62,895 bases of DNA, taken from the NCBI GenBank assembly GCA_018335295.1, contig JAGXKI010000007.1, positions 7,501 to 70,395 of the forward strand, given 5' to 3'. Below the pieces are notes generated by a model that saw nothing but the letters and a program-made list of their open reading frames with translations, did no database searches and had not been told where the DNA came from. This document shows, one piece after another, positions 1 through 62,634 of this stretch (position 1 is its first letter; each line of letters begins with the position of its first letter). The DNA comes from a bacterium (lineage in GTDB: Bacteria; Acidobacteriota; Aminicenantia; Aminicenantales; Aminicenantaceae). Both the position numbers and the translations under genes were made by a program.

Positions 1-2282
<2,282 letters not shown>

Positions 2283-12204: not shown

Positions 12205-12205
12205 A

Positions 12206-12697
12206 ATGAATTTGTCTTTTTGGGTCAATAATAAAGAGTATAAGTTAAAAGTTAAAGAATATCAGAAAAATTCAATCCACGTGTGGGTGGGAGAGAGGAA
12301 GTACAATGTAGAGGCAGAGTATTTAAAGCCAAATGTGCTCCTTTTGAATGTGGAAGGGAAGGTTTACGAGACAATGATCCATTCGAATGCCGTTTCTCAC
12401 TCTGTTTATGTGAACGGCCTTCGGTTTGATGTGCAAAAGAAATCTTTGAACCAGATTTTAGGAAAACAAGCGGGAAAAACGAGGAAAAAGGATATCAAAA
12501 CTTCAATGCCGGGAAAAATAGTCAAGGTACTGATGGAAGAAGGAACAGAAGTTCAAGAAGGCCAGGCCGTTTTAATTCTTGAAGCTATGAAAATGCAGAA
12601 TGAAATTAAATCTCCTCAAGCGGGGCGCATAACAAAATTGGGATCTAGGGCTGGAGATTCTGTAGAAGCTGGTGCTCTTTTATTTACTGTGGAATAA
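12206..12697 (+). CDS. Biotin carboxyl carrier protein (acyl-CoA carboxylase)
   Basis: A 163-residue carrier. The C-terminal biotinyl/lipoyl domain (about 95-163) has the biotinylation motif EAMKMQN with Lys129, preceded by the linker MPGKIVKVL and followed by IKSPQAGRI. The N-terminal 90 residues form a small beta-rich region of unknown function that is common in carriers of propionyl-CoA carboxylase type. It completes the operon of the beta subunit and biotin carboxylase and is followed by a hairpin that may end the transcript. Confidence 0.93.
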   Translation: MNLSFWVNNKEYKLKVKEYQKNSIHVWVGERKYNVEAEYLKPNVLLLNVEGKVYETMIHSNAVSHSVYVNGLRFDVQKKSLNQILGKQAGKTRKKDIKTSMPGKIVKVLMEEGTEVQEGQAVLILEAMKMQNEIKSPQAGRITKLGSRAGDSVEAGALLFTVE

Positions 12698-12726
12698 ATA
12701 AAAATGGAGGGGAGTTGGGAGTCTTT

Positions 12727-12770
12727 CTCTTCAAAGAGAATGTTTCCTCTTTGAAGAGTTGAAAATTTTT
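12727..12770 (+). terminator. Hairpin after the carboxylase operon
   Basis: Twelve perfect base pairs (12727-12738 with 12747-12758) around an eight-base loop, followed a few bases later by ATTTTT at 12765-12770. Position 30 bases after the carrier stop fits an intrinsic terminator, but the stem is AT-rich and the T-run is short and not adjacent. Confidence 0.45.
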
Positions 12771-12856
12771 ATCCCCATGGGGAAATTCCTATTTCTAGAC
12801 AATGATGCTATATTTAATGGTTAGACCCAAAAAATGTTCAAGAAAAGGAAACAAAA

Positions 12857-12921
12857 AGTCAAAATTTATTCCGACTCTTTTTTTATAAGTCTCGGTCCCT
12901 TTTATGAATAATTCAGGTTAA
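12857..12921. repeat. Dispersed repeat, partial copy upstream of tamB
   Basis: About 65 bases matching the right half of the element at 53103-53242. Two blocks are identical: GACTCTTTTTTTATAA (12873-12888) and TTTTATGAATAATTCAG (12900-12916). The last 18 bases ATGAATAATTCAGGTTAA equal the reverse complement of the left end of the other copy. It ends seven bases before the tamB start, so it forms the gene's immediate leader. Confidence 0.6.
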
Positions 12922-12927
12922 ATAAAC

Positions 12928-15900
12928 ATGATGAAATTGGGAAGGGTCAAATTTAAAACTTTAATCGTTATCCTCTCTCTCTTTGTATTGTTAGCGGGGG
13001 CAGGATACATCATCAATCGGGTGGTCCTCCGTCAGATAGAAAAGAGGATTGAGACCCATTTTGGTTTTGATGAAATCCACCTGGGCGTTTTTCCCCCGTC
13101 TGTGGTGATCGAGGATCTCCGGTCTAAATCCATGACCCCTTTCATTGCTTCCGATCGGGTGAGGCTGCAAATTTCCTCTGGAACTTTATGGTCCAAATCA
13201 ATCCAGTTTAATGTTTTTATGGAACATCCCGTAGTGAGGATGGAGGGGATTCCTCAAGAAAAGAATAAAAGAGAAAAAGACTTTGACTTTGTTTCATCCC
13301 TTCCTGTTGGAATTCACAAAGGAGTTATTAGCAATGGAGAACTCTATTTTTGGGCAAAGGGGATGCGGATATTTTCGAAAAAAATAGAGGCTCTCATCTT
13401 CAAGAAAAAAGACCGCTTGGAGTTAAAGATGGAAGCGGAAGAGAATATCTTTGATTTTGGAGATGAAAGAGAAAAAATCAAGGGAAAAATGAACCTTATA
13501 CTGGAAGGGAAGGGGAAGGAGTTCGATATCAGGAAATTAAATATCCGTGGAAACGGGTGCATCCTGAAAGCAGAGGGAAAGTTGTTGGAGCCTTTTAATC
13601 CTCGATTTCATTTAAAAAGCTTTTTCAACCTTCCAGCAGAGTTTGCTTCGGGGATGTTCCATCTTCCTTTTGATTGGCAAGGAAAGCTGGAAGGAGAGGG
13701 GATGTTAACCCGGAAGAACCGGACGTTTTTGGCTCAAGCTGATTTTTCCAGCAGAAACTTGGTTCTTAATGATGTAGATATGGGGAAAGTGGAAGGAAAT
13801 GTGGATTATAATCAAAAAAAGGGAGGGACAGTCGAGCTGAACATCCAGAAAAATCGATCTTCTCAAGAATTCGTAAAAATCCGTTTTGAGGGGAATAAAA
13901 TAAAGGGAGAAGCCCGTCGGTTTCATCTGGACCCCATTGTCCATTTCATTTCACTGCCCTGGCCCGTTCTTTCTCCTGTTTGGGGAGAGTTCACTATGAA
14001 AAGAGGCCGGCTCAATGTAGAAATGGAATTTCGAGACCAATTGATGGCTCCCTTGGGTCATGAATTTCCCTTTCAGGGAAAACTGAATCTTTTCTGGGAC
14101 GGAGATAGAAGAGTTTCTTTCAAGGCTCCGGACCTTAGATCGACCTTTGCTCATGTTGAGTTGGATGGAGAATTATCTGTGGGGAGGAATATGGATATCT
14201 CCATTGAGGGAGAGGTGAACCATCTTCAACAAGCCCGGATATTCACAGAAGAGTTTTTAGGCCAAGAATTTAAATTCCCAGAAACTCAGGGAAAGGGAAA
14301 AGCCAAATTACAAATCTTTGGCCCTTTTAAATCTCCTCAATTGTATGCCCGGTTTTCTTTTTCTCCTGGAATTTTTGACCGTTTTGAAGTCAATAAGGTG
14401 CAAGGTGAAGCTGAGCTTATTAAAAATGAGTTTTTTGGAAGGTTTAACTTGAAGGATCCGGTAGCGGAGGGTAAAGTCAGTTTATTTTCCAGCCCCCAGG
14501 AATTCAGGACAGAAATTCAGCTCCAAAGGGGAAAAATAGAAAAAATACTTCCCAAAATAGATGTTCCTGTGCCTTTAACGGGGGAAGTTTCTGGAAATTT
14601 CGAGTACACACAGAAAGATGGGGAACCTCATTTCCAAGGGGACTTTTCCAGCCCCCATCTGGAGATGGGAGGACAGGAATTTTCCGAAGTGAATGGCAAG
14701 ATCAACTGGTCCCCCGATAAGATTTCTTTCCCTTCTCTTCAGTTTGATTATCTTGAGGGCCAGGTCGAAGGAATTCTCCTCTTAAACACTTCTAAGGACC
14801 ATTTTGATGTGAATGTGGAAGGGAGGAACATCAATATTTCTTCATTCCATCCCCATTTGAAAGGGAATTTAAATTTTAACATGGAAGGCCAAGGCACATT
14901 CGGAAAGAATAAGGCCAAGGGAAAAGTGAAGATCCAAAGTTTGAAGTTCCCTCCCCTTCAAAAAACAGATTTTATAGGAGAAGCAAAACTAGGCCTTTCT
15001 TCGAACACTCTTCAATTGGATTTGGATGGAAATTTTTCTCCTGGAAAAAATAGGTTTCAATTTTCCCTCAAAGCCCCCCTTTTCAATAATACGGTATCGG
15101 GAAAAGTTGCCGGAAGTTTTGAAAATTTTGATTTAGTCATTCCTTGGACCGGAGCCAAAGGAAAGATCAATTATATGGCTGAACTTTCGGGGAAAAGAGC
15201 TTTTCCTCGATTCAAAGGAGCCATTGATTTTCAAGGTTCTGTATTTCCTTTTCCTCAATTCCCCCACGCATTGAGAGATTTCTCAGGCCTTATTTTCGTA
15301 GAAAACAATGAATTTTCACTTCGATCCTTCCAGGGGAAATTGGGAAGAGGAAATTTAAAAGGAAACGGCCAGCTTACCGTAGGAGATAAGGGGATAAAAG
15401 ACATCAATCTCCAGATAGAAGGGAAAGACATGCTCCTTTCTCCTCTGGAAAGGACTCGAGCTTTGACCGATGGGAGTTTGAGTCTCACTCAAGAAGACGG
15501 ACAGCTGAACCTTAAAGGAAAATTATTTGTAGACCGACTCTCCTGGAGGCGGGAATTCACAGAGAAATTTGAATTTTATCCTTCTCCTTATTATCAACCT
15601 GAAAAAAAGTCCGATTTGCTTGAGAATCTCAAGTTGAACCTCCGGTTGGAGGCGGAGGATAACGCTAGGATAGAAAATTCTCTGGTGAATCTAGAAACTC
15701 GTTTTGATCTAAATGTTAAAGGAGATCTGAATTCTCCTGTGATTCTGGGAGATATTGAAGCTTTAAGTGGAGAAGCCTATTTTCAGGATAGGGAATTCAG
15801 GATTGTAAAAGGGGAAGTGAGCTTTTTCGATCCTTTGAGGATTGAACCTTATTTAAATTTTAAAGGAGAAACTTACATAAAAGACTATAGGGTGACCTTT

Positions 15901-38369: not shown

Positions 38370-40262
38370 CTAATCTTTATACACCAGAGTGAGTTCTACT
38401 TCAGCGGTAAGGACTTCAAACTCTGAAATTTCCACCTGAGCTTCGATAGTGGCGGTGCTGTCTTCAGATATCTCTGTATTTGTGGGACCCCAGTAAGTGA
38501 CTTTGGCGATGCCTTCCGAGTCAGTGGTAGCTTCTATAGAATACACATCATCAGTATCATCAAAGCTTCCTTCTCCGGATGTAATCTGGAATAATACAGT
38601 TTCACCAGAGACAGGACTGGTTCCTTGTTTGAGTTTGGCTCTGATTTCTGAATCCGAACTTGTGTCACCACAGATAACCGTGCTGGGGTCCGCGATGAGT
38701 TCTAATGAATACTCAGCCTCTTCTTCTTTGATCAGAGTTAGTTCTACTGTTTCTGTGATATTATACAGAGAAGAGGTTTGGGGTTGAGCTTCAATGGTCA
38801 CCGTTTCATCATCGGTCATATCATCTTTGGTGGGACCTCTGTAGGTCACAGTGGCGATTCCTTCTTCATCTGTCAAGGCCACAGCAGTGGTTTTGCCGTT
38901 AGTGAATTCTCCGGAACCGGAGGTAATCTGGAAATAAATTTTTCTATCGGGTAGAAGAGTGCTTCCTTTCTTGAAGTAAGCTTTGATGGTGGAAGTAGGG
39001 TTCTGATCTCCACAAAGCAGGACATAAGGCTCAGCGATGAGATCCAGACTTAAATCCGGGGCATCTCTCAAAATGGAAACCGAAGTGGTCCCTGTAGAAC
39101 TTTCCTCTCCTTCTCCCGCCAGCCAAGCTTTGATGTAGATGGTGGTGTTTTCTGAAATCTCTTGAGCAATCGGTCCATAGTACACTGTCTCCGCCGTGCC
39201 GGTGTTGTCGGTGGTTTTTTCCTTAACCGATTTTTCTCCTTCGAAATATCCCAGATCCAGCCTATTTCCGTTTTCATCGGTGATTTCAAAATAAAGAGTC
39301 TTATTGGCTACTGGCTTATTCCCGGCTTGGGTGGCTGTGGCTGTAATCGTTGATTTTTCTCTGTAGGTTCCGGCAAAAAGGACATTGGGACTGGCGCTGA
39401 CATCGATATAAATATCATCTGAGTCTGCAATGATTTGGATGGCTGCGGTGGCTTCGATGATTTCTTCTTCGCTGGCTCCTTCCCATCCCACGGTAGCCCG
39501 GATGTAAAGGGTGGTGTTTTCGGTTATTTCATCGGACACTGGTCCAAAATAATCAACTTCCACCCTTCCTTGCTCGTCGGTGGTTTTAGTGATAACCGGT
39601 TCATTTCCTTCAAAATAACCGAGGTTAACCTTGGTCCCTGTTCCATCAGTGATTTCAAAGTGAACTTTTTCTCCGGATAAAGCGATGTCGCTGGTAGTTT
39701 TGAGAACCCCGGTTATAGTCGATTTTTCTGGAGATTCTCCTGCGAAGAGAACATTGGGGTCAGCGGCAAGGGAAAAGGTAGCCACTTCCATATCTTGGAT
39801 GATTTGGAGCTTGGCGGCATTGGATATAAATTCTTTTCCTTCCCAGGAAGCCCTTGCATATATGTAGAGGGAAATGTCCCCGCTCAGCTCTTCAGCTGTG
39901 GGGCCATAGTATTTGACTTTAGCCAGTCCGTTCCCATTGGTGGTGACGGTTTGGACAGATTTATTGCCTTCAAAATAGCCCATATTGATCTTATTTCCCT
40001 CTGAATCTCCGATTTCAAAGTGGATGTCTTTTCCGCTTATAGGAACCCCGTCATATTTTTTTAGAGAAGCGCTGATTTGGCAGATATCACGGGATTCTCC
40101 GGCGGTCAGGACATTGGGACTTAAAGTGAGGTCCAAAATGATCGAAAAGGTGGAAGGTCCTACTGGAGAAGGCTCCTCAACTTCATTCCGGGTGCAGGTA
40201 TTGAAAAGGAAAAATCCCAAAATTAAGAAGAATACGCTTAATATTCTCAATTTTATTCTCAT
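38370..40262 (-). CDS. Lipoprotein with five bacterial Ig-like (Big_1/invasin-type) repeats
   Basis: About 630 residues. A lipoprotein signal (RIKLRILSVFFLILGFFLFNTC) leads into five tandem repeats of roughly 110 residues, each starting like ADPNVLFAGES...STI and closing like TTDxxGxAxVxYxGPT...TxxIxA. The first three are closest to one another, the last two to each other, suggesting two rounds of duplication. The invasin-type fold builds rod-like surface or periplasmic arms. The start at 40262 has AAGGA seven bases before it; the frame is open to 40286. It ends the minus-strand pilus operon, so it may be a pilus-linked surface lipoprotein (inference). Confidence 0.8.
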   Translation of the reverse strand: MRIKLRILSVFFLILGFFLFNTCTRNEVEEPSPVGPSTFSIILDLTLSPNVLTAGESRDICQISASLKKYDGVPISGKDIHFEIGDSEGNKINMGYFEGNKSVQTVTTNGNGLAKVKYYGPTAEELSGDISLYIYARASWEGKEFISNAAKLQIIQDMEVATFSLAADPNVLFAGESPEKSTITGVLKTTSDIALSGEKVHFEITDGTGTKVNLGYFEGNEPVITKTTDEQGRVEVDYFGPVSDEITENTTLYIRATVGWEGASEEEIIEATAAIQIIADSDDIYIDVSASPNVLFAGTYREKSTITATATQAGNKPVANKTLYFEITDENGNRLDLGYFEGEKSVKEKTTDNTGTAETVYYGPIAQEISENTTIYIKAWLAGEGEESSTGTTSVSILRDAPDLSLDLIAEPYVLLCGDQNPTSTIKAYFKKGSTLLPDRKIYFQITSGSGEFTNGKTTAVALTDEEGIATVTYRGPTKDDMTDDETVTIEAQPQTSSLYNITETVELTLIKEEEAEYSLELIADPSTVICGDTSSDSEIRAKLKQGTSPVSGETVLFQITSGEGSFDDTDDVYSIEATTDSEGIAKVTYWGPTNTEISEDSTATIEAQVEISEFEVLTAEVELTLVYKD

Positions 40263-40266
40263 GGTT

Positions 40267-40869
40267 CTATCCTTCTTCGTCAGCATAATTTGCGAAAAAT
40301 ATTGGTAAATAGCCTGTAGCCTTAACTTTGCGGCCGGCTAGATCATGACCATAAAATTCCACCTTCGCTTCAACTTCCAGGACGCGTTCTCCCCCCTTTT
40401 CTCTGAGGTCGACCAAAGGAGATTCCTCTTTGGCCACTTCTCTGACGATAACAAAGGAGATTTCCGTAGTGGAATCGATTTCAACCAGGGCGGAAAGAGA
40501 GCCTTCGAAGGAATAGGGAACATCTTCACCCTCCACATTTTTACCATCGGTTCGATGATAAGAGACTACATACCGGGTAACCTTTATATCGTTGTAGTGA
40601 GAAGCTCCTAATCCCAAAAGAGGTTCTGGGTTCAAAAGCTTAGCGGCTAGAGTGACGGTGGCTGTATCTGCGGTTGCGGTTTGGGTTCCTATGACCACAT
40701 CAGACTGCAGGAAGTTGACTTCATTGTCTTCAATGTCTGTTCCAGTGATGTTTTGGACGATGAGCATGCTGTTGGATCGGGTCTCGTTCTCCATCGGGTT
40801 GCAGGAGAAGAGAAGGATTATAATCGGGAAGATAACGGTTATTTTCCAGGCCCATTTTGCTTTTTTCAT
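40267..40869 (-). CDS. Hypothetical lipoprotein of the pilus operon
   Basis: About 200 residues, with a basic N-terminus, a hydrophobic stretch WKITVIFPIIILLF and a lipobox Cys (FSCNP). The body is beta-strand-like with no motif that I recognise: SMLIVQNITGTDIEDNEVNFLQSDV and VTRYVVSYHRTDG suggest one Ig/fibronectin-like domain. It lies 13 bases after the pilQ stop and its own stop is five bases from the Ig-repeat gene start, so the pair is cotranscribed. The start could also be ATG 40878; 40869 has AGGATGG in front. Confidence 0.6.
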   Translation of the reverse strand: MKKAKWAWKITVIFPIIILLFSCNPMENETRSNSMLIVQNITGTDIEDNEVNFLQSDVVIGTQTATADTATVTLAAKLLNPEPLLGLGASHYNDIKVTRYVVSYHRTDGKNVEGEDVPYSFEGSLSALVEIDSTTEISFVIVREVAKEESPLVDLREKGGERVLEVEAKVEFYGHDLAGRKVKATGYLPIFFANYADEEG

Positions 40870-40882
40870 TTTGACCATCCTA

Positions 40883-43183
40883 TCATTTAATTATCCGAGG
40901 AGTTATGAAGATTAACAGTTCTCGATTTTTTTTGGTTCGGGCGAATGACCGGAATAAATTTCCCAGGATAGGAATTTTATGGAAAAAAGGAACACGTTCC
41001 CGAGTAATGGTGTCTTCCATCCGGTAAATACCCCCGATCACCGTGGTGCCTCCATCCTCGACCATTACGGTGGTGCTGGCACTCTGAGTGGTGATTGGAG
41101 GAATACCGTTGACCAGGTTAGCGAAGTCGGCGGCGTTGTTTCTTATATCGATAGCCATAACAATGGTTCCTTCGGCTGTGATTTGTGGAGTTGCTGTTAA
41201 TTCCAGGGCGGCATTCACATACCGTGTGGTGACAGTGAAATTAGCCACTGTCTGGACAGGGATTTGTCTTCCTCGGATGATTTCGGCTTCCTGGTTGTTT
41301 TGAGTGGTTACGGTGGGTGCGGAGATGATGCGGCCTTCTCCAGACCTTTCCAGGGAGGTGATGGCCATATCCAAACGGAATGTATCCAGCACGTTACCGA
41401 AGGAGAGTCCAACCGCTGTATTGAAAGAAGGAGCTGGAAGGTTGACCGCATAACCTCCCAGAGGTCCCCCCAAACCTTTGGTGACTGTTCCTTTGGGTAT
41501 TTGAGCTCCGTCCACCAGAACGGAATTAGGAAACTGAAGAGAGGTGGGATTTCCGTAGAAAGAGTCAGCAATTCCTCGAAATCCCCATTGAATCCCCAAA
41601 TTTCGAATGAACTGGGAAGTGGCTTCCACAATTCGTGCTTCAATAGAGACTTGAGGGGTGGCTGTGTCAAAAACATTGATGAGTTTTTCTAAAAGAGGCA
41701 TCCGGTCACGGACTTCAGAAATGATCAGAGTGTTGGTTCTTTCGTCTATGATGATTTCCCCTCTTTCTGACATTTTGGTTTGGAGAAGACCCTGGACTTC
41801 TCCGGCTTTCGCATAAGAAAGAGTAAAGGTTTTAACCAACACAGGACCGGCCAGTTCTTTGCTTTCTTTTAGTTGCCTTTCTTGTTGTTGCTCCCGGGTG
41901 AGAACGCTGACAGGAGCAATCCGGAGAACATTTCCTTCGATCGTCTTTCCCATGTTGTTTATTCTAAGAATGATATCCAGAGCTTGGTCCCAAGGAATAT
42001 CTTCCAAATCGCAGGTCACCGTACCGCTGACTTGAGGATCAAAGACCACATTGAGATTGGCAAATTCACCCAGGTAGAGGACCACATCCCGTAAATCGGC
42101 CTCTTTGAATTTGAGGCTGATGATTTCTCCAGTGTATTTTTCCTCTTCTTCAGTAATGCTTTTGGGTTTGTACTGGGTTTCCTGAGATTTCTTTTCCTGG
42201 GATTGGAGTTCCTGAGACTTTGTTTTCTGGGCAGAAATGTTTGAGTCTTTCTTTGTTTTGGATTCGGAAGAGTCTGTTTTTGTATGGGAACTTTTTTGGG
42301 AATTTTTGGTCTCTTTAGAAGGGTCCTTTTCCTTTTCAGGAATCACTGATTCTTTGGGGATAGGCGGGGGAGCAGCTTTTGAAGTGGAACTGGAGACAGA
42401 AGAGGGAAAGGAAACAGTCAATCCATTTTGATCCTCTTGGAGCTCAAACAAAGAAGGTTGATTCAGGTCAAAGACCATCCGAGAAATGGTATGAGGATTG
42501 GAGACCTGGAATTGGGCGGTTCGGATCCTTTTAATTCCATACTTATTTACAGGATAAGTGTCAGGACGTCTGTTTAAAGTATTGAACAGATCAACCACTA
42601 ACCGTAAGGGGTTCTCCAGTACAAAAACATTGGATATCGGATTCCCATCTGTCTCCGCTCTGATATTCAGGGTATTTTCGTTTTCAGAGACACGGATTCC
42701 CTTTAAATGGAAGAAACTGAGAGGAGTTTGATTGAGCTCTTTTTTTAAACCTGAACCAAAAATGTATTCTTCAGCTCCTCTTTGGATATGGTTCAACTCC
42801 ACCACTGTGGATTGACTGTGAGAAAGGATTCGGTAGGGCACAGGCTCTTTTAAAACAAGAGCTAAACGAAAGTTGTTTCCCCTGTTTTTTTCAAGATCAA
42901 TTTTCTTCACGAGAGAAGATGTTTTGGGCATAATGGGAAGATCAGGAAATTCTTTGATAGGGGAGAGATCTATGAATAAAGTGGATGAGTTATCAGGGGA
43001 ATAATGGGATCGGTGGATGGATAAAGGAGAATTGGTGTCCAGGACTACATCAGTGGTGAGTTTGTGGGGTTGAATGGAGATTTTATTTATGTTGACGGGT
43101 GATTGATTGCTTTTGGCTTGGATGAAGAAAAAAGAAAGGACGAGCAGAAAGGGAATTATTTTTAAATGTTTTTTCCTAATCAT
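40883..43183 (-). CDS. pilQ: Type IV pilus secretin PilQ
   Basis: About 766 residues: the outer-membrane channel through which the pilus emerges. Order: signal peptide (IIPFLLVLSFFFIQA), two AMIN-like beta domains (about 20-270), a Ser/Lys/Glu/Gln-rich linker (about 275-345), an STN/N0-like domain with ISLKFKEADLRDVVLYLGEF, a secretin N1 domain and the secretin core with VEDGGTTVIGGIYR and a KKNRELLIFITPRII end. The start ATG 43183 has GAGGAGC eight bases before; the frame is open to 43216 but that overlaps pilP. It is the fifth gene of pilMNOPQ. Confidence 0.96.
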   Translation of the reverse strand: MIRKKHLKIIPFLLVLSFFFIQAKSNQSPVNINKISIQPHKLTTDVVLDTNSPLSIHRSHYSPDNSSTLFIDLSPIKEFPDLPIMPKTSSLVKKIDLEKNRGNNFRLALVLKEPVPYRILSHSQSTVVELNHIQRGAEEYIFGSGLKKELNQTPLSFFHLKGIRVSENENTLNIRAETDGNPISNVFVLENPLRLVVDLFNTLNRRPDTYPVNKYGIKRIRTAQFQVSNPHTISRMVFDLNQPSLFELQEDQNGLTVSFPSSVSSSTSKAAPPPIPKESVIPEKEKDPSKETKNSQKSSHTKTDSSESKTKKDSNISAQKTKSQELQSQEKKSQETQYKPKSITEEEEKYTGEIISLKFKEADLRDVVLYLGEFANLNVVFDPQVSGTVTCDLEDIPWDQALDIILRINNMGKTIEGNVLRIAPVSVLTREQQQERQLKESKELAGPVLVKTFTLSYAKAGEVQGLLQTKMSERGEIIIDERTNTLIISEVRDRMPLLEKLINVFDTATPQVSIEARIVEATSQFIRNLGIQWGFRGIADSFYGNPTSLQFPNSVLVDGAQIPKGTVTKGLGGPLGGYAVNLPAPSFNTAVGLSFGNVLDTFRLDMAITSLERSGEGRIISAPTVTTQNNQEAEIIRGRQIPVQTVANFTVTTRYVNAALELTATPQITAEGTIVMAIDIRNNAADFANLVNGIPPITTQSASTTVMVEDGGTTVIGGIYRMEDTITRERVPFFHKIPILGNLFRSFARTKKNRELLIFITPRIIK

Positions 43184-43184
43184 G

Positions 43185-43640
43185 TTATCGCTCCTCGAGA
43201 GATATTTCTTTGACAATATCTTTTGGTTTTAACAAAGGAATTCCTCTTTCTTTAGTCTTTCGGAATATGACTTTATTTTTCTCTATGGACAGCACAAAAC
43301 CATTCGAAAATTTATCCCCTTCATGAATGTAATAAGGAAATTCCTGAGGGCTGGAGATGATAGCGGTGTAGCGGCCCTTTGCTTTGACAATACCTATGAG
43401 CACTACCTCATCGATGGAAATCTGAGGGATTCCTTGAGCCTTATCTGTTTCTTTCACTTCTTTTCCAGCCAGAAGGTTGCGGAAAGGATCTCGCCTCCCC
43501 TGTGATTGGTAAGAGTAGGCAGTTTTTTTGAGCTTTTCTGGGCTTATTTCTTTTTGTTGGGTTTTCTTTTCAGTTTGAGAAAAGAGAGGTCCTATCCAGA
43601 TAAAGAAAAAAGAGAGTGCAATAATGAATATTCTTTTCAT
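43185..43640 (-). CDS. pilP: Pilus assembly protein PilP
   Basis: A 151-residue periplasmic protein that links the inner-membrane PilMNO platform to the secretin. Signal peptide (MKRIFIIALSFFFIWIGPLFS), a short low-complexity linker rich in Lys and Gln, then the PilP beta-sandwich: RRDPFRNL, ISIDEVVLIGIVKAKGRYTAII, YYIHEGDKF. No clear lipobox is seen, unlike many PilPs. Its start overlaps the pilO stop (ATGA) and its stop lies one base before the pilQ start codon. Confidence 0.9.
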   Translation of the reverse strand: MKRIFIIALSFFFIWIGPLFSQTEKKTQQKEISPEKLKKTAYSYQSQGRRDPFRNLLAGKEVKETDKAQGIPQISIDEVVLIGIVKAKGRYTAIISSPQEFPYYIHEGDKFSNGFVLSIEKNKVIFRKTKERGIPLLKPKDIVKEISLEER

Positions 43641-44209
43641 TTTCCTTTGTTTTGTTTCCCTTGTTGTTCGGATGAAGGTTCAGGGAAAATATAAGTTTTA
43701 GCTGTCCACTCGGCAGATATGGTAGTTCCTTCCGATTGCTCACGCAGAGCTTGGATTGAAAAGTTGTCTATGGTGAAAAGTCGGGAAAAATTACTAAGCC
43801 TGTCAAAAAAGATGGCAAGGTTATGATAGTTTCCGGTTATTTCCACAGAAATAGGCCACTCAAAATAAAATTCTTTTTCTACAACTCCCTGCGGAACAAA
43901 TTTGGAGATATTGAGCCGAGAGTCATAAGCGAGCTGCTGGATTTTTCTCAATATATCACTTATTTCTTTGCGCTGAGGGATGATGGCCTCCAGTTTATCC
44001 AAAGTTTCATTCATAGATTCCAGCTCAGCTTCAATCTTATCCAGTTCCTTTTTTTTGGCTTTTAACTCTCGGACTGTTTTTTCAACTTGAATTCTTTCCT
44101 GTTTTATGTTTTTCAGTTCCTGGTTTTTGGGTTTGAAATAGACAAGGTAGAAGAGCCCGAAAATGATCAAACCCAATAGAGCATATCCATACCAGGGCCA
44201 ATCTCTCAT
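43637..44209 (-). CDS. pilO: Pilus assembly protein PilO
   Basis: A 190-residue inner-membrane protein: one membrane helix (WYGYALLGLIIFGLFYLVYF), a coiled coil (about 30-75) and the periplasmic ferredoxin-like PilO domain with FYFEWPISVEITGNYHNLAIFFDRLSNFSRLFTI. It forms heterodimers with PilN and binds PilP. ATGA overlaps join it to both pilN and pilP. The C-terminal tail is Gln/Lys-rich. Confidence 0.92.
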   Translation of the reverse strand: MRDWPWYGYALLGLIIFGLFYLVYFKPKNQELKNIKQERIQVEKTVRELKAKKKELDKIEAELESMNETLDKLEAIIPQRKEISDILRKIQQLAYDSRLNISKFVPQGVVEKEFYFEWPISVEITGNYHNLAIFFDRLSNFSRLFTIDNFSIQALREQSEGTTISAEWTAKTYIFPEPSSEQQGKQNKGK

Positions 44210-44814
44210 TTTTTCTCCTTTTTGGAATTATCGTTTGAATTAGATGAAGGAGGTGAGTAATTGGCGGTGAGGGAGAATTCCAGGTATTGATTGTTCTGGG
44301 TTTTTCGCTGAGTGGAAGAAAGAAGGTTGACATTGTCAAAGTAAGGGCTTTCATTCAGGTTGGATATATAGTCAGCTATCAGATTGTTGGATAGAGCATT
44401 TCCTTGAATTTGAATACCCTGAGGTTTGTAGGTGGTTTCTGTCAGCCATACCCATTCAGGAATGTTTTTGCTGAGCATATCCATAATAATGACTGCATTA
44501 TCTTGGCGGGATTTTAGTTGTTGGATAAGATTTATTTTTTTCTCCAGCATATTTTTTTGTTTTTCTAATTTTTCCAGTTTAACCAGGACATATTGGAGTT
44601 CATTCTTTTCTTTTTGGGCTTTCTCTAATAAATTCTGTTCTTTATTGATGGCTCTCTGCTGGAGAAAGAATAGGACTCCTATGAGAATGACCAAAAAGAG
44701 AATAAATAGAGTTCCAATAGGAAGCTTTTTTTTCTCTTTGTATTCGGGAGGTGGGACTCCTGGCTCTTCTCTGATCTCTTTTTTTTCTGGTTTGAGTAAG
44801 TTAATTCTTATCAT
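44206..44814 (-). CDS. pilN: Pilus assembly protein PilN
   Basis: A 202-residue inner-membrane partner of PilO. The cytoplasmic start MIRINLLKPEKKE holds the INLLP-type motif that binds PilM, followed by a membrane helix (GTLFILFLVILIGVLFFL), a coiled coil and the fimbrial-assembly domain with PEWVWLTETTYKPQGIQIQGNALSN. The C-terminus is Ser/Asn/Lys-rich. It starts three bases after pilM and overlaps pilO by four. Confidence 0.93.
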   Translation of the reverse strand: MIRINLLKPEKKEIREEPGVPPPEYKEKKKLPIGTLFILFLVILIGVLFFLQQRAINKEQNLLEKAQKEKNELQYVLVKLEKLEKQKNMLEKKINLIQQLKSRQDNAVIIMDMLSKNIPEWVWLTETTYKPQGIQIQGNALSNNLIADYISNLNESPYFDNVNLLSSTQRKTQNNQYLEFSLTANYSPPSSNSNDNSKKEKK

Positions 44815-44817
44815 GGC

Positions 44818-45897
44818 TTATTTCTCTACTTTCCGGGTAGCCAATCCTGTGGCTACTCCAAAAAGAGAAGGCATTTCTTCAAAATACATGCTGTCGAATT
44901 TTTTCTCATCATAGTAAATATTTCGAAAAGGATTGAATATTTCTGTTTTCGTGTTGAATTTTTGTTCAAAATCTTTAGGGAGATTGGATAATTTAGATAG
45001 TCCCCCGGAGAGAAGTATGAGATCGATCTTTCGTTCGCTTTTTTCTCCTGCTTCATAAAAATCAAAGGTCTTTTCTACTTCTCCTAAGGCATTCTGAATA
45101 TTCAGGTTCAATGCATTTTTGAATTGGTCTTCAGGAACGCCTTCCACAGGAATTCCTTTCAGCATTTTTTCTACATCATCGAAACTGACGTTTAAATCTT
45201 TGCTTATGTTTTCGCAAAAATAGGCTCCTCCCAATGAAAGGTCCCTAAAAAGTTGGGGAGTCCCTTTTTCTATAATGACGGTATTGGTGATGTTCGACCC
45301 CAGGTTGATAATGGCCACTGTTTTCCCTGAGTATATTTCTGGATAATTGATTTCAAATGCGTTTTGAAGAGCAAACACATCTACTTCGATCGCTTTTAAA
45401 TTTTTTTTGGCTTGATGGACTACGTTGCTGTAATTGGCAATCTTATCTTTTTTAGCTGCCACCAGCAGGATATCCAGGTTCTTTTCTTTTGTGCTTTCAC
45501 TCGGTTTCAGTATAGAGTAATCCACGTTGGTTTCTTCGTAGGGATAGGGGATGTTGTGTTTGGCCTCCCAAATTATAGACTCAGCCAGTTCTTCAGTCTC
45601 CATGTTGGGAAGGGATATTTTTTTGATGATCACCGAATTTCCTGAAATAGAAATCACCACGTTTTTATTGGAGATTTTGTTTTCATCAAAAACCATTTTG
45701 ATGGTTTCTACTACGGCAGGAGAATCTATGATGGTGCCTTCCACGATGGCATCTTGGGGAAGAAATTCGTAGCCAATTTTTTTGACTTCGTACTGCTCGG
45801 CCCCTTCTTTTTTCTTTGATCTCAATCCGACTGTTTTGATGGCATGGGATCCAATGTCCAATCCCACCACTTCTTTGTCTCCACCTAAACCAAACAT
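44818..45897 (-). CDS. pilM: Pilus assembly ATPase-like protein PilM
   Basis: A 359-residue cytoplasmic actin-like protein that binds the PilN tail. It has the phosphate-1 motif GLDIGSHAIKTVGL, NVVISISGNSVIIKKI, the phosphate-2 motif VAIINLGSNITNTVI and the adenosine motif LILLSGGLSKLSNL. The rest follows FtsA/PilM topology, and the conserved MFGLGGDKEVVGLDIGS start is typical. It starts one base after coaD and leads pilMNOPQ. Confidence 0.95.
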   Translation of the reverse strand: MFGLGGDKEVVGLDIGSHAIKTVGLRSKKKEGAEQYEVKKIGYEFLPQDAIVEGTIIDSPAVVETIKMVFDENKISNKNVVISISGNSVIIKKISLPNMETEELAESIIWEAKHNIPYPYEETNVDYSILKPSESTKEKNLDILLVAAKKDKIANYSNVVHQAKKNLKAIEVDVFALQNAFEINYPEIYSGKTVAIINLGSNITNTVIIEKGTPQLFRDLSLGGAYFCENISKDLNVSFDDVEKMLKGIPVEGVPEDQFKNALNLNIQNALGEVEKTFDFYEAGEKSERKIDLILLSGGLSKLSNLPKDFEQKFNTKTEIFNPFRNIYYDEKKFDSMYFEEMPSLFGVATGLATRKVEK

Positions 45898-56263: not shown

Positions 56264-57184
56264 ATGCAGGCTTTAGAGGTTGAAAATGTCTCGAAAAGTT
56301 TTGGTTCCTTTCTGGCGGTGAACGATTTATCTTTTTCCATTCCTCAGGGAACCATCTATGGTCTTTTAGGACCTAACGGAGCGGGGAAAACCACCACTAT
56401 CCGCATGGTGATGAATATCATTATTCCGGATCAAGGATTTATCCATGTTCTGGGTCAAAAAATGAATGAACACATGAAGGAAAAAGTGGGATACCTTCCC
56501 GAAGACAGGGGCCTTTATCCTAAAATGAAGGTGGAAGAACTGCTTTTTTTCCTTTCAGCATTGAAAGGACTTAAAAGAGATGAGGTCGGCCGGAGGATTG
56601 ATTATTGGCTCGACCGGTTCGACCTCGGCGAATGGAAAAATAAAAAGGTGGAAGAACTTTCCCGAGGGATGCAGCAGAAAATCCAGTTTATTGTGACCGT
56701 CATCCACCGTCCTGATTTGATCATACTGGATGAACCTTTTGGAGGACTGGACCCTGTGAACACCAAACTGTTGAAAGACATCATGCTGGAGATGAAAAAA
56801 GAAGGACACACCATCATTTTTTCCACCCATCGAATGGAGCAAGTGGAGATGATCTGTGAGAATATTTGCCTTATTAACCGGGCAAAAAAGGTATTAGAAG
56901 GAAGTCTCAACCAAATCAAGAAGCAGTACGGAAAAAATACCCTTCTCCTTGATTACGAAGGAGAGGGGCATTTTATCCACAAGCTTTCCGGGGTTGAGCA
57001 TATCGATGATTATGGTAAATTCATGGAAATAAGACTTGCGGACACCCGGGATCCTCAAAATTTGTTGAAAGAGCTGGCAGAGAAGGTTCGAATCAACCGG
57101 TTTGAAGTGAAACAACCCTCCCTCAATGCGATATTTATTGATAAAGTGGGAGATAAAAATGCAAAAGATCCTATCGGTCATTAA
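56264..57184 (+). CDS. ABC transporter ATP-binding protein (NatA-like)
   Basis: A 306-residue ATPase of the ABC-2/NatA group. Walker A GPNGAGKTT, Q-loop GYLPEDRGLYPKM, signature LSRGMQQKIQ, Walker B LIILDEPFGGLD and the switch FSTHRMEQVE are all present. The C-terminal 90 residues form the extra regulatory part of this group. It pairs with the permease that begins 26 bases before its stop. Such exporters move sodium, small toxic compounds, or lipids and glycans in other bacteria. Confidence 0.93.
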   Translation: MQALEVENVSKSFGSFLAVNDLSFSIPQGTIYGLLGPNGAGKTTTIRMVMNIIIPDQGFIHVLGQKMNEHMKEKVGYLPEDRGLYPKMKVEELLFFLSALKGLKRDEVGRRIDYWLDRFDLGEWKNKKVEELSRGMQQKIQFIVTVIHRPDLIILDEPFGGLDPVNTKLLKDIMLEMKKEGHTIIFSTHRMEQVEMICENICLINRAKKVLEGSLNQIKKQYGKNTLLLDYEGEGHFIHKLSGVEHIDDYGKFMEIRLADTRDPQNLLKELAEKVRINRFEVKQPSLNAIFIDKVGDKNAKDPIGH

Positions 57185-58436
57185 AAGAGAATACCTCCAG
57201 ATCGTCAGGACCAAGGGGTTTATCATCGGGACTGTTTTGGGGCCCGTTCTTATCGGGGCCTTTCTGGTGATTCCTGTGGTTTTTTCTCTGATTTCTGTCG
57301 ATCAACAGGAACAGATTGGTGTGGTGGATTTGAGTGGGGAGGTGGCTGGGGGGTTGGAAGAAAAACTCGATCAAAAAATGAAAGATGGAAAACCGAGATT
57401 CGTTTTGAAGCTCTATGAAAATTCTAAAGATGAGAATATTAAAGACTTAAAAGAAGAGATGAACCAGAAGGTTTTGAATGAGGAGTTTTCCGCCTATATT
57501 TTCATACCTGAAGGTATTATAAAGGGGGGGAGTGTGGAGTATGTGTCCCAGCATGTTTCGGATTTTGATAAGATCGGGAATATCCATGATGCGGTCAATT
57601 CGGTGATTATCGAAAAAAGGCTTAAGAAGGAAGGATTGGACCCCCAGAAAATAGCTCAACACATGAAAGAAGTGAGCTTGAAAACCAGCAAGGTCACCCA
57701 AAGAGGAGTGGAAGAGGACACCGGAGGGACGTTTATTATTTCCTATCTTTTAGTGTTTATTTTGTACATGACTCTTTTTTTCTACGGGTCTATAATTTTG
57801 AGAGGGGTCATTGAAGAAAAAAGCTCCCGGGTTGTGGAGATTGTTCTCTCTTCCCTGCGGCCTTTTCAACTCATGCTGGGAAAAATAATGGGAATTGCGG
57901 CCGTGGGGTTTACTCAGTATGCCATCTGGGCTCTGTTTGGACTGGGCGTGTCTCAATATGGTTCATCCCTGATTTCTGGATTTTTTCCAGCGGCTTCTTT
58001 CAATTTTCCTTCTATTCCGGCTTATATTTTTATCTATTTTGTGGTTTTTTTCATCCTGGGATATTTTCTTTATGCAACGGTCTACGCTGCCATCGGATCT
58101 TTGGTGAATTCAGAAAAAGAAGCCCAACAGCTACTTTTACCTGTGAGCATGTTTTTGGTGGTGCCTATCCTTTTAATGATGTATGTAATCCGGAGCCCTG
58201 AAAGTACTCTTTCGGTGGTTTTATCCATGATTCCGTTCTTTGCTCCCATTTTGATGCTTCTCAGAGTCTGTGTGCTGTTTCCTCCCTTTCCTCAAGTGGC
58301 TGGTTCGATTCTTCTTCTGATTTTAACCATTCTGGCTATGGTCTGGGTTGTGGCCAAGATTTACAGAGTGGGGATTTTGATGTACGGGAAGCGTCCCCGC
58401 TTTCCAGAGATTATCAAATGGTTTCGGTACCAATAA
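57159..58436 (+). CDS. ABC-2 type permease (NatB-like)
   Basis: About 425 residues: an N-terminal membrane helix (FIIGTVLGPVLIGAFLVIPVVFSLI), then a 150-residue outer domain, then five helices grouped at the C-terminus (TFIISYLLVFILYMTLFFYG and RVVEIVLSSLRPFQLMLGKI in the first two). The order and the IxREYxxIVRTKGFxIGT start match NatB/ABC2_membrane_3. Start ATG 57159 has GGGAG six bases before; the frame opens at 57126 inside the ATPase gene. The secreted protein gene begins just after its stop. Confidence 0.88.
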   Translation: MQKILSVIKREYLQIVRTKGFIIGTVLGPVLIGAFLVIPVVFSLISVDQQEQIGVVDLSGEVAGGLEEKLDQKMKDGKPRFVLKLYENSKDENIKDLKEEMNQKVLNEEFSAYIFIPEGIIKGGSVEYVSQHVSDFDKIGNIHDAVNSVIIEKRLKKEGLDPQKIAQHMKEVSLKTSKVTQRGVEEDTGGTFIISYLLVFILYMTLFFYGSIILRGVIEEKSSRVVEIVLSSLRPFQLMLGKIMGIAAVGFTQYAIWALFGLGVSQYGSSLISGFFPAASFNFPSIPAYIFIYFVVFFILGYFLYATVYAAIGSLVNSEKEAQQLLLPVSMFLVVPILLMMYVIRSPESTLSVVLSMIPFFAPILMLLRVCVLFPPFPQVAGSILLLILTILAMVWVVAKIYRVGILMYGKRPRFPEIIKWFRYQ

Positions 58437-58441
58437 AAAAG

Positions 58442-60049
58442 ATGAATAGTAAAAGAAAAGGAAGCAAGAGAGGGATTATTATTTTTATGGGGATGGTTAT
58501 TTTGGGTTCTTTTCTTTTCTCTTCTGCGGCCCAAGAATCAGAGGTGTTTATGTGGATAGGGTTTAAACAGCTTTCCAGGGAAGACCCTTTAACCCTGGAT
58601 AATATCCTCAGGTTCGCCAAAAGGATGGATATCATTCCTTACTCCTCAGGAATGAATCACACCCGGGAGCTGGAACGTTTCCTTAAAGAATGCCAGAGGA
58701 AGGGATTTGAAAAGACCTGGATAGAAATCGGTCCCGGCAAAAAAGTGACAGCGAAGGAGTTTGTGGAAAATCCTTCTTCCAGAGAGGAGACTCTTTCCCG
58801 GTTTAAAGCGTTGGCGGAAGTTTACAAAAAATATTATCCTCATTTTGCTCGGATCACTATTTTTGATGAAGCTCCGTTAGGAGCTTTTGGCCGGAAAGAG
58901 GGAAGTTATAAAAAGCAGCTTGAACAGTTTCAAAAGTACGGCCCTCGGGCTTTTGCTTTTATGTATGAAGCGATTAAACAGGTTATGCCCGCTGCTCAAG
59001 TAGGGATATTTTTGCATCATCCCCATAATGCTTCTCCCCGAATGGCCGGAGATTATTCCTACATCAAGCCCTTTATGGAAAAAACTTCCCGTTGGGAAGC
59101 TTCTCCGGATTTCATCTTTTCCGATGTGTATAGGGGTTATTTCAATCGAGGCTTTGGAGTGGAGAAGACCGATGACTACATTACCGATGTGGTGAACTAC
59201 ACCAGAAAAATTTCAGAAGAGTACGGAGCGAAAGCCTATCAACTGGGTCAGATGCATACGATTAAATTGGGATATACTCCCAGTCAGAGGCAGATTGATC
59301 ACAATGTGGAAGCGATGCTTAGAGGAAATCCTCACGGGATCGGTTGGTACTGGCCCAATTATGCTTCCACAAATTACAGAAGAATTTCAAAGAAAAAGAT
59401 CGGTTCCCCGGAAGGTTATGATGTTTCCTTTGATCCGTTTGTGCCCAACAGTTGGGGGAAGATCGGACCGGCGGGCTCTGTGTACGGCACATCCAAAGAC
59501 CGGTTTGTTTATTCTTATCTGCGAATCCTGGAGTCTTTAGGTAAAATAAACTTTCAGCAGGTTTTTGACCTTTGGGTTTACGGTTATGACTTTGATCATG
59601 TGGAACATAAGCTGTATTTAAAGGATGTTCAGAAAGAAAATGGAAAATGGGAGTTGATCGGACACTTCAATCCTCAACAGGATAAACAGGGCTATGTAGA
59701 GGGAGCCAGAGAGGAATACATGTATTCCTACCACGAGAAATGGCATGCGGTGGCTTTCCACGGACTCTCCCGGGAAAAATTTTTAACCAAGGAAAATGAA
59801 TCTTCCTACCAGCTCACAGTCAAAATTGAAACCTCCAAAGAGAGTGACCAATCTTTGTTAAGTGCCCTGTATGTCATGCCCTACAGAAAAACTCGACATT
59901 ATGCCCTAGAGGATAAAATCACCGAATTTATAGAGAGACATCCCCGATGGGTGAGGATCAATAGTCTGACTCACCGGGTGGCCCCCCAACACTTGACTTT
60001 GACTCCTCAGGGAAAATGTGTATGGAAAGTGAGGCAGCCTGCGCCATGA
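58442..60049 (+). CDS. Unrecognised secreted protein, TIM-barrel-like with C-terminal novel domain
   Basis: About 535 residues. The N-terminus is a signal peptide (GIIIFMGMVILGSFLFSSAA). The first 370 residues look like a hydrolase-type barrel: alternating strands and helices, ARITIFDEAP with an Asp142-Glu143 pair at a strand end, then VGIFLHHPHNASP and GIGWYWPNYAS. The last 160 (from FDLWVYGYDFD at 375) form a beta-rich domain that is repeated in the gene at 60332. Function unknown; a sugar or glycan substrate is a guess. The frame opens at 58418 inside the permease gene; ATG 58442 suits the signal peptide. Confidence 0.6.
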   Translation: MNSKRKGSKRGIIIFMGMVILGSFLFSSAAQESEVFMWIGFKQLSREDPLTLDNILRFAKRMDIIPYSSGMNHTRELERFLKECQRKGFEKTWIEIGPGKKVTAKEFVENPSSREETLSRFKALAEVYKKYYPHFARITIFDEAPLGAFGRKEGSYKKQLEQFQKYGPRAFAFMYEAIKQVMPAAQVGIFLHHPHNASPRMAGDYSYIKPFMEKTSRWEASPDFIFSDVYRGYFNRGFGVEKTDDYITDVVNYTRKISEEYGAKAYQLGQMHTIKLGYTPSQRQIDHNVEAMLRGNPHGIGWYWPNYASTNYRRISKKKIGSPEGYDVSFDPFVPNSWGKIGPAGSVYGTSKDRFVYSYLRILESLGKINFQQVFDLWVYGYDFDHVEHKLYLKDVQKENGKWELIGHFNPQQDKQGYVEGAREEYMYSYHEKWHAVAFHGLSREKFLTKENESSYQLTVKIETSKESDQSLLSALYVMPYRKTRHYALEDKITEFIERHPRWVRINSLTHRVAPQHLTLTPQGKCVWKVRQPAP

Positions 60050-60339
60050 AAACAAATATTCACAGGGGAATTTCTCCAAGGGAGAAATGGGTTTTAATGG
60101 CCGCCGCAGGTTTGGGGTTTATTTTTTTATTAGGGAGCTGTTTTCAGTCAAGCTCTCCTTCCCAGGATATCCTTGAAGGAGGGTATTGGAAAAAACAAGG
60201 ACTGGAGGATCCTTCGGTGAAGATTATTGAAGTCAAGGTCAACAATGGTACATGGAAAGATTACAATTCCAGATCGGTTTTTTTGCCCGGAGGCTCCTGT
60301 TTACACGTGGAGGTTCTCATAGGAAAGAAAAATGATTGA
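60046..60339 (+). CDS. Small lipoprotein of the secreted cassette
   Basis: About 97 residues. A basic start, a hydrophobic stretch (WVLMAAAGLGFIFLLGSC) and a lipobox Cys, then about 65 residues with VKIIEVKVNNGTWKDYNSRSVFLPGGSCLHVEV, which looks like one small beta domain. I do not recognise it. ATGA overlap with the previous gene (60046-60049) fixes the start, and it overlaps the following gene by eight bases, so the three are translated together. Confidence 0.6.
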   Translation: MKTNIHRGISPREKWVLMAAAGLGFIFLLGSCFQSSSPSQDILEGGYWKKQGLEDPSVKIIEVKVNNGTWKDYNSRSVFLPGGSCLHVEVLIGKKND

Positions 60340-60964
60340 TATCCGGATGAATTTTCTTTTTAAACTCCAAATTTTTCTCTTATTTATTATGATGGGGCTT
60401 CCAGGGAGGGTGTTTTCCGGAAGTCCAGGTGGAGAGAAGTTTTTTGCTTATTTTGATTTTTGGATTTATGGGGAAGGGTTGAACGAAGGAAAATATCAAA
60501 TTTTTCTCAAAACCAATCTTTTTTACGGAAACAAATGGGAATGTGTGGGGAAATTTCCTCAACGCTCTGATAATTTAAAAGTTTCAAAGGAAGGAAAACT
60601 TCTTCTCATAAGCCGATTGAAAAGAGAAAAGTATTGGGGACAGGATATCAGAGAAAATTATGTAGCTGTAAAGATGGTTTCTCCCAAAGGGAATCCCACC
60701 GTTTCTGTGAAAGGAATGTATATTTTCAGCTCTCAAACAGAGGAAAAGGAGGGGTTAGAGAGAAAAATTCGTCGGATTGAAAATCAATATCCCGTATTGA
60801 ATAAAAAATCCTTGGCTTACCATGTGCGGCCGCGGGTGTATACCCTGGTACCCGGAGTTCCTTATATCGAACATGTAGAAGCTCCAGTGAAGGGCCACAA
60901 GCCAGGCGTTTTGGAAGTGGAATGGTTGGAGATGATTTTCAAGCATAAAAGGAGTCAATCATGA
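60332..60964 (+). CDS. Secreted protein sharing the C-terminal domain of the 58442 gene
   Basis: A 210-residue protein with a signal peptide (NFLFKLQIFLLFIMMGLPGRVFS). From residue 41, FDFWIYGEGL...WECVGKFPQ, and at the end KSLAYHVRPRVYTLVPG, it matches the last 160 residues of the 58442 protein (FDLWVYGYDF...WELIGHF and NSLTHRVAPQHLTLTPQG). The two look like paralogous copies of one beta-rich domain, here without the barrel. AGGAAAG is five bases before the ATG. It is not recognised as a known family. Confidence 0.6.
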   Translation: MIDIRMNFLFKLQIFLLFIMMGLPGRVFSGSPGGEKFFAYFDFWIYGEGLNEGKYQIFLKTNLFYGNKWECVGKFPQRSDNLKVSKEGKLLLISRLKREKYWGQDIRENYVAVKMVSPKGNPTVSVKGMYIFSSQTEEKEGLERKIRRIENQYPVLNKKSLAYHVRPRVYTLVPGVPYIEHVEAPVKGHKPGVLEVEWLEMIFKHKRSQS

Positions 60965-61205: not shown

Positions 61206-61261
61206 AACAGAATAAAGATTAAGTCAGGATTTAGCTTACTGAAAAGTCATTGATTCGAGGA

Positions 61262-61843
61262 ATGGAAGAAAAGAGTTTATCAAAAAATGAGGATATTTCT
61301 GCCCTTATCCAGAAAATCAAAAAAGGTGACCGGAAGGCTTTCATGACAATCACTCAACTTTACCAGAAAAATGTTTTTTTGCTGGCCTATTCGTTCTTCC
61401 ACAACAAGGAAGATGCTTTGGACGTGGTGCAGGAGACATTTTTACGGTTTTACCAAAAAGTCCATCTTTATAAAAAAGGACGAAATTTTAAGAATTGGCT
61501 TTTACAGATAACCAAAAACATATGTATCGATTATTACAGGAAAAACTACAGTGGGAATAATTCCTTTAACAGAGAGCAAAACTTGGAGGATATAAATATT
61601 CCTGTGAATGACTCAAATGATTCTCTTCTTTCATCAGATTTAAAAAGGATATTTATCCGTTCTCTTCAGGAGTTATCTGAAAGACAAAGGATGATCTTTG
61701 TCATGAAACATTATAACCAATTCCAGTATAAGGAAATTGCTCAAATATTAAACATAGCTGTGGGCACTGTGAAATCCATTCATCATAAAGCTGTGCAAAA
61801 CCTTAAGAGGATTATGAATCCTTATTTAGGGGGTGAAAAATGA
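61262..61843 (+). CDS. ECF-type RNA polymerase sigma factor
   Basis: A sigma-70 family ECF factor of about 193 residues. Region 2 has AFMTITQLYQKNVFLLAYSFFHNKEDALDVVQETFLRFYQ with the core-binding and -10-recognition helices, then NFKNWLLQITKNICIDYYRK; region 4 has LQELSERQRMIFVMKHYNQFQYKEIAQILNIAVGTVKSIHHKAVQNLK, the helix-turn-helix. ATG 61262 has GAGG very close; a TTG at 61250 is the alternative. It overlaps its anti-sigma gene by four bases. Confidence 0.92.
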   Translation: MEEKSLSKNEDISALIQKIKKGDRKAFMTITQLYQKNVFLLAYSFFHNKEDALDVVQETFLRFYQKVHLYKKGRNFKNWLLQITKNICIDYYRKNYSGNNSFNREQNLEDINIPVNDSNDSLLSSDLKRIFIRSLQELSERQRMIFVMKHYNQFQYKEIAQILNIAVGTVKSIHHKAVQNLKRIMNPYLGGEK

Positions 61844-62634
61844 AGGAATGTCAGAAGATTCAAAAAGATTTGGTGGCGTTCCTTTACGGAGAATTGGATG
61901 AAAGGGAAACCGAACGGGTCCAACATCATATCCAAGAGTGTTCTCACTGTGAAAAAGAACTCCACAACTTGAAAAGGATTATGGGAGGCGCTGACTGTTT
62001 GCAGGAAGATATCCAGGGAGCTGTGTCTTCGGTGGATTGGGATTCCCTTTCTTCCCAAATCACCGATTCGGTCTTCGATAAAAACACATCCCCGGAATCC
62101 ATTTGGACCCGAATCGGGAAATGGCTGTTTCCACCCAAGTTAAAGCCGGTTTATGCAGGATTGATTGTAGGGATCCTTTTGGGGTCTGTCCTCACACTTT
62201 TGATTTTCCGAATGCCTCCTCAAAAAGTACAGGGGAAGCATTTTATGGTTCCTCCTGGATTTTTAGAAAAGGTAGAAATCGAGATGGCTCGCCGGGAAAC
62301 CGTCGATTATCTCCAAAAGAGTGAGTATGTGATTTTGGATTTAGTCCAGACGGATCAACCGGTTTCTCACTGGGAGGATAAAACAGGGACCTTTCGAAGG
62401 GCCCAGAACTTGCTCTCCAAAAAGAGATACATCGACCCGCAGCTGAATAAGATTCAGATAGCCAAAGCTAAGGACATCTGCGACCAGATCGAGCTTCTTT
62501 TGTTTGAGCTCATTCAAATCAGGGGGGAGCTGAATGAGGAGAAAATGGAAGAAATTCAAGAATACATCAAGCAAAAAAAGATTTTACTGAAGATAAATTT
62601 AGTAAAAAATGAATTGGAAAAAAGTGAGGTGTAA
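61840..62634 (+). CDS. Zinc-finger transmembrane anti-sigma factor
   Basis: A 264-residue membrane protein. The N-terminal zf-HC2/ZAS domain has HxxxCxxC as His30, Cys34, Cys37 (HIQECSHC) plus Cys4, which holds the sigma factor off the polymerase. One membrane helix spans about 104-123 (VYAGLIVGILLGSVLTLLIF). The outer 140 residues are helical and charged, ending in IKQKKILLKINLVKNELEKSEV, and may sense an envelope signal. ATGA overlap with the sigma gene and two bases to the next start suggest one operon. Confidence 0.88.
   Translation: MKECQKIQKDLVAFLYGELDERETERVQHHIQECSHCEKELHNLKRIMGGADCLQEDIQGAVSSVDWDSLSSQITDSVFDKNTSPESIWTRIGKWLFPPKLKPVYAGLIVGILLGSVLTLLIFRMPPQKVQGKHFMVPPGFLEKVEIEMARRETVDYLQKSEYVILDLVQTDQPVSHWEDKTGTFRRAQNLLSKKRYIDPQLNKIQIAKAKDICDQIELLLFELIQIRGELNEEKMEEIQEYIKQKKILLKINLVKNELEKSEV

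Follow-up and report, generated by a model that had tools for sequence, protein, structure and literature searches.

A rare three-gene cassette for secreted proteins, with a truncated AGE-superfamily gene, inside an exporter–sigma factor neighbourhood of an Aminicenantaceae bacterium

Retaining glycosidases of clan GH-A are defined by an Asn preceding the Glu of strand 4 and by a second Glu on strand 7. In the cellobiose 2-epimerases, which together with the N-acylglucosamine 2-epimerases (AGEs) belong to the AGE superfamily (PF07221), two essential histidines serve as acid/base (PMC5726027), and the position of Tyr124 of RmCE is taken by Phe116 in the AGEs (PMC6333288). Both groups are the closest described counterparts of proteins encoded by a three-gene locus in a 62,895-nucleotide stretch of bacterial DNA (hereafter, the window), which is compared here with cassettes of the same genes in two other phyla.

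Layout, neighbours and distribution of the cassette

Three plus-strand reading frames lie head to tail, each overlapping its neighbour (Table 1). Genes 1 and 3 start with hydrophobic N-terminal signal sequences, and LLGSC in gene 2 resembles a lipobox; the coordinates and signal sequences bear out the original prediction of three overlapping genes for secreted proteins. The start of gene 2 is likelier to be at 60046, in an ATGA overlap with gene 1, than at the listed position 60016, an upstream in-frame ATG. A 160-residue domain had been proposed to be common to genes 1 and 3, and it is real: residues 373–542 of gene 1 and 31–186 of gene 3 are 25% identical over 170 residues (BLASTP, E 3e-10), and a six-sequence alignment that includes the homologues supports the common domain. 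None of the three window genes has a convincing match to a Pfam or NCBIfam model, and genes 1 and 3 match no sequence-defined family in Pfam, NCBIfam and PDB profile searches. The original statement that none of the three was recognised holds, by sequence, for genes 1 and 3, but gene 2, through its full-length relatives, falls in a described superfamily (see below).

Table 1. Features of the locus, its neighbours and the related cassettes
Feature	Position	Strand	Length, evidence or remarks
ABC transporter ATPase, resident neighbour	56264..57184	+	PF00005, E 4e-30
ABC-2 permease, resident neighbour	57126..58436	+	PF12698, E 1e-56
Gene 1, secreted protein	58442..60049, or 58418 from upstream ATG	+	535 or 543 aa
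Gene 1, N-terminal TIM-barrel-like domain	residues ~40–375	+	predicted structure
Gene 1, C-terminal beta domain	59543..60049, residues ~376–543	+	BLASTP homology to gene 3, alignment
Gene 2 remnant (P0002)	60046..60339	+	97 aa; in-frame fusion of the two ends of an AGE-superfamily protein
Gene 3, secreted single beta-domain protein	60332..60964	+	210 aa; homologues P0012, P0013
ECF sigma factor, resident neighbour	61250..61843	+	TIGR02937, E 1e-31
zf-HC2 anti-sigma factor, resident neighbour	61840..62634	+	PF13490, E 6e-9
L004, Bacteroidales MAG (G427)			gene 1 best segment 62% identical
L004, full-length gene 2 (P0010)	11502–12983, directly after gene 1		493 aa; AGE superfamily
L005, Aliifodinibius (Balneolota) MAG			gene 1 55% identical
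L005, full-length gene 2 (P0011)	11672–13120, directly after gene 1		482 aa; AGE superfamily

The cassette is preceded by an ABC-2 exporter and followed by a sigma/anti-sigma pair, as predicted and as the family matches in Table 1 confirm. Orthologues of the ABC ATPase occur in same-family genomes that do not carry the cassette, and the permease is matched in 31 of 38 family genomes at E ≤ 1e-30, mostly with 58–73% identity. In at least 22 same-family genomes without the cassette, the exporter is followed 0.1–1 kb downstream by the sigma gene and usually by the anti-sigma gene too; at a few other loci of the family no sigma gene lies within the fetched flank, or the contig edge is reached. The DNA homology between the window and these relatives ends at about 58430–58442 and restarts at about 61260, on either side of the cassette. 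Neither the exporter nor the sigma pair is present in the neighbourhoods of the L004 and L005 cassettes. By these sequence comparisons, the exporter and the sigma/anti-sigma pair are old residents and not specific to the cassette.

Across most genera of the family, the ABC-2 exporter followed by the ECF sigma/zf-HC2 pair (56264–58436 and 61250–62634 in the window) is kept, a neighbourhood that is uncharacterised but stable in the family. At three same-family loci (L025, L027 and L030) no sigma gene is found within 1.5 kb after the exporter, and another insert or a rearrangement may lie behind it. Elsewhere in the window, reading of the translations alone suggests a secreted 638-residue protein of repeated Ig-like blocks (38370–40286), adjoined by a second lipoprotein-like gene (40267–40878) and a type IV pilus-like assembly cluster (40883–45897).

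Relatives of gene 1 were found in two of 84,980 species genomes, in a scan with short exact peptides that distant relatives may escape; over its full length, gene 1 is 59% identical to the L004 protein and 55% to that of L005. In whole-genome searches, the gene was present in one of 38 same-family and one of 396 same-phylum genomes. Profile searches around the two other carriers, in samples drawn from the phylum and family to which the Balneolota genome belongs and from the class and order of the Bacteroidales one, returned only the known members; three profile matches with E of about 0.001 (L044, L045 and L046) proved unrelated when read. A tblastn search of plasmids with the L005 protein gave no match, and viral contigs gave pattern matches but no relative among them. 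The gene 1 family is rare.

Genes 1, 2 and 3 are together on one contig in L005, whereas in the Bacteroidales MAG genes 1 and 2 (L004) and gene 3 (L012) are at the ends of two contigs, C105 and C44, a split between genes 2 and 3 that is consistent with an assembly break. The gene order of the cassette is kept in three phyla; the conserved co-occurrence with the exporter and sigma factor that had been put forward as a check was not found in the neighbourhoods of L004 and L005. No SusCD pair, sugar transporter, sulfatase or other sugar gene was seen adjoining the cassette in the three genomes, and the literature on secreted or periplasmic AGE enzymes, or on the L004 sampling site (Lake El Tobar), yielded nothing specific to it. 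Between the window genome and the other two, MutS shares 44–47% identity, whereas gene 1 is 55–59% identical; because gene 1 identity exceeds that of MutS and the distribution is patchy, horizontal transfer is favoured. The GC content of the cassette (0.39–0.44) does not differ from that of the window (0.42), so that composition gives no signal of transfer.

The predicted barrel of gene 1

The model of full-length gene 1 was poor (pLDDT 56.8), and the barrel domain was therefore modelled separately. The barrel models, built on only three sequences, reached a pTM of 0.69 and a pLDDT of 66.5, and their confidence is good up to roughly residue 275 of the protein; residues 240–339 of the barrel model are unreliable and its last third has a pLDDT below 50. 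In Foldseek searches with this model, GH53, GH5 and GH10 structures were at the top of the list (best E 5.6e-7, for GH53), with query-normalised TM-scores of only about 0.45–0.56. At or near the predicted strand ends, E103, D150–E151, H200–H201–P–H203 and D236 are invariant in the three sequences, as are Q275, Q278, H280, W310 and W312. At the end of strand 4, as placed by the model, all three have Asp150–Glu151 rather than Asn–Glu, and on predicted strand 7 all three read AYQLGQxHT, with Gln rather than Glu, at a strand end that borders the low-confidence part of the model. Going by the model, E151 is a natural candidate for an acid/base. Since the Asn of strand 4 and the Glu of strand 7 are both missing, gene 1 was not assigned to clan GH-A.

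Kinship with the GH84 O-GlcNAcases was also considered and rejected: the PDB match is weak (E 0.05–0.1) and out of register, and the catalytic Asp pair does not fall on the conserved Asp–Glu.

Gene 2 and gene 3 in the three cassettes

In the two related cassettes, gene 2 encodes a full-length protein of the AGE superfamily. The L004 and L005 proteins match PF07221 with E values of 6e-34 and 5e-28 (scores 118 and 99, cut-off 23.4), covering positions 1–345 and 24–345 of its 347, and the full-length protein matches the cellobiose 2-epimerase 5zhb with an E of 1.7e-26. In the alignments to 3wkf and 5zhb, the histidine of its GHNxE motif falls on the one of GHDIE, and KTSYH pairs with KCPYH of 5zhb, so that the equivalent of H259 of RmCE and the YH near the barrel end are kept. 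At the position of RmCE Tyr124 there is a Phe, as in the N-acyl enzymes, a weak hint that may point to N-acylhexosamines. A lipobox is present in the L004 protein.

The gene 2 of the window likewise lies between genes 1 and 3, and had been described as a tiny lipoprotein. This description does not survive the alignments with L004 and L005, in which it appears as the leftover of a much longer AGE-superfamily gene: the signal peptide, the lipobox and the first ~20 mature residues, joined to the last ~45 residues, with about 400 residues of the catalytic barrel missing. The product has no Pfam match; the barrel and the catalytic histidines are gone and only the two termini align. At the N-terminus, the signal, the lipobox and GxxWKxQGL align to the start of the full-length proteins, with scores reached by 12 of 5000 shuffles for P0010 and 1 of 5000 for P0011. 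The C-terminal part, EDPSVKIIEVKVNNG...LPGGSCLHVEVLIGKK, aligns with the L004 tail, EDHNVTVRHVRIDGK...LPEGSNLSVEVVLSK (BLASTP, E 3e-6; score reached by none of 5000 shuffles), and has no match to the diverged tail of L005; only about half of the C-terminal extension is kept. The breakpoint is placed to within a few codons, and the deletion is seen in the assembly of one MAG. Read in this way, the 97-residue protein is a remnant of an AGE-superfamily protein or an assembly artefact (see below), and not a distinct protein.

Gene 3 has an invariant GQDIRENY motif. The window protein is 29% identical to P0012 (L005) and 36% to P0013 (L012), whereas P0012 and P0013 are 43% identical; the window copy is thus the outlier of its three, while gene 1 is evenly diverged (59%, 55% and 55%). 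The comparison covers three sequences, too few for a formal test, and the faster divergence of gene 3 in the window would be compatible with relaxed constraint after the loss of the enzyme.

A proposed reading and its relation to known systems

We consider it fairly probable that the locus is a rare, horizontally acquired cassette for the extracytoplasmic processing of a saccharide, which landed between a resident exporter and a resident sigma pair and has partly decayed in this genome. The anatomy and history of the cassette are well supported, and for its function a reasoned hypothesis can be offered. The complete cassette, represented by L005 or by L004 with L012, would encode a secreted TIM-barrel enzyme, with a fold most like that of the clan GH-A glycosidases and a C-terminal beta domain (protein 1), an epimerase of the AGE superfamily that is exported (protein 2) and a second beta domain, secreted on its own (protein 3). 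Protein 1 would first cleave, or otherwise act on, an extracellular saccharide through its conserved acidic residues at strand ends, presumably D150–E151 on strand 4, possibly together with E103, D236 and the HHPH cluster. The reducing sugar set free in this way would next be epimerised or isomerised by protein 2, whose two conserved histidines would be the acting residues, and protein 3 may bind the ligand or protein 1. In the window genome, an in-frame deletion would have taken about 400 residues of protein 2, so that only the first step could still run; the short frame keeps its start–stop overlaps and may couple the translation of gene 3. Of the original suggestion, the location outside the cytoplasm and, as the probable substrate, a glycan gain support from the AGE-superfamily gene 2 of the homologous loci, the GH-A-like barrel model of gene 1 and the signal peptides. 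More tentatively, and as a possibility rather than an expectation, protein 1 may found a new family of sugar-active TIM barrels (a strand-4 Asp–Glu dyad, a strand-5 HHPH cluster and no GH-A nucleophile) that acts with an exported 2-epimerase, the cassette releasing and epimerising a sugar outside the cytoplasm and moving between phyla as a unit.

The idea that the cassette is dedicated to its neighbours, with the ABC-2 exporter moving a glycan or lipid, the three secreted proteins processing it and the adjacent sigma factor in control, we regard as highly improbable. The permease stop and the start of gene 1 lie a few bases apart, and co-transcription with the exporter is likely here; however, such a dedicated link, part of the original prediction, is not supported, because the exporter adjoins the sigma/anti-sigma genes without the cassette in the family genomes described above, and the L004 and L005 cassettes have neither neighbour. 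A less far-fetched, if still unlikely, alternative is that the true genome holds a full-length AGE gene, collapsed to 97 codons in the MAG contig. The genome is a single metagenome assembly of 107 contigs, exactly one internal in-frame deletion is seen and gene 1 is well preserved, all of which would fit; yet no relative of P0010 was found elsewhere in the 2.5-Mb genome, there is no known repeat to account for a collapse, and the faster divergence of gene 3 here would be expected if its partner had been lost. That the 97-residue protein is instead a working mini-lipoprotein, ancestral or repurposed, is quite improbable: the open frame, the lipobox and the coupled start and stop are all kept, but one half of it matches the start and the other half the end of a 490-residue enzyme, with only part of the extension kept, and, as both other cassettes have the long form of gene 2, a loss in the window makes for the simpler history.

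As to the chemistry of protein 1, a metal-dependent barrel, resembling sugar isomerases/epimerases or lyases and using the strand-5 HHPH cluster, has some chance of being correct in place of a glycosidase, although we would not bet on it. The invariant H200, H201 and H203 lie at or near strand ends with E103, E151, D236 and H280, and the Foldseek lists include xylose-isomerase-like and YcjR-type barrels; GH53, GH5 and GH10, however, outscore them with the barrel-domain model, and there is no Pfam match to the sugar-isomerase barrels.

If the proposed saccharide-processing cassette is confirmed, the known sugar enzymes would gain a barrel family that is not yet catalogued and an AGE-type epimerase that is exported, and the linkage of the three genes across phyla would make the question of the substrate directly testable. 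The locus also illustrates that a small lipoprotein of unrecognised role can be what is left of a gutted enzyme, and that neighbouring genes, taken by themselves, can be a misleading guide once a cassette has inserted into an old operon.

Of the described systems, clan GH-A (GH53, GH5, GH10) resembles gene 1 in the predicted TIM barrel, the Glu ending predicted strand 4 and a Trp on strand 8 of the model, but gene 1 has an Asp before that Glu and a Gln on strand 7, and no sequence-level match to any GH family. The AGE superfamily aligns with gene 2 of L004 and L005 at both histidine motifs and at an Arg-containing segment. In contrast to its described members, these proteins are exported and are extended at the C-terminus by about 80 residues; a Tyr replaces the Glu of WWxQxE, no counterpart of the third histidine (H200 of RmCE) is evident, in a stretch where the alignment has gaps, and the scores are far under the NCBIfam equivalog cut-offs, whereas gene 2 of the window lacks the entire barrel. 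Finally, as in the polysaccharide utilisation loci of Bacteroidota, secreted and lipoprotein sugar enzymes would be encoded side by side; the cassette differs from these loci in having no SusC/SusD pair, regulator or sulfatase in the neighbourhoods examined, and in occurring outside Bacteroidota too.
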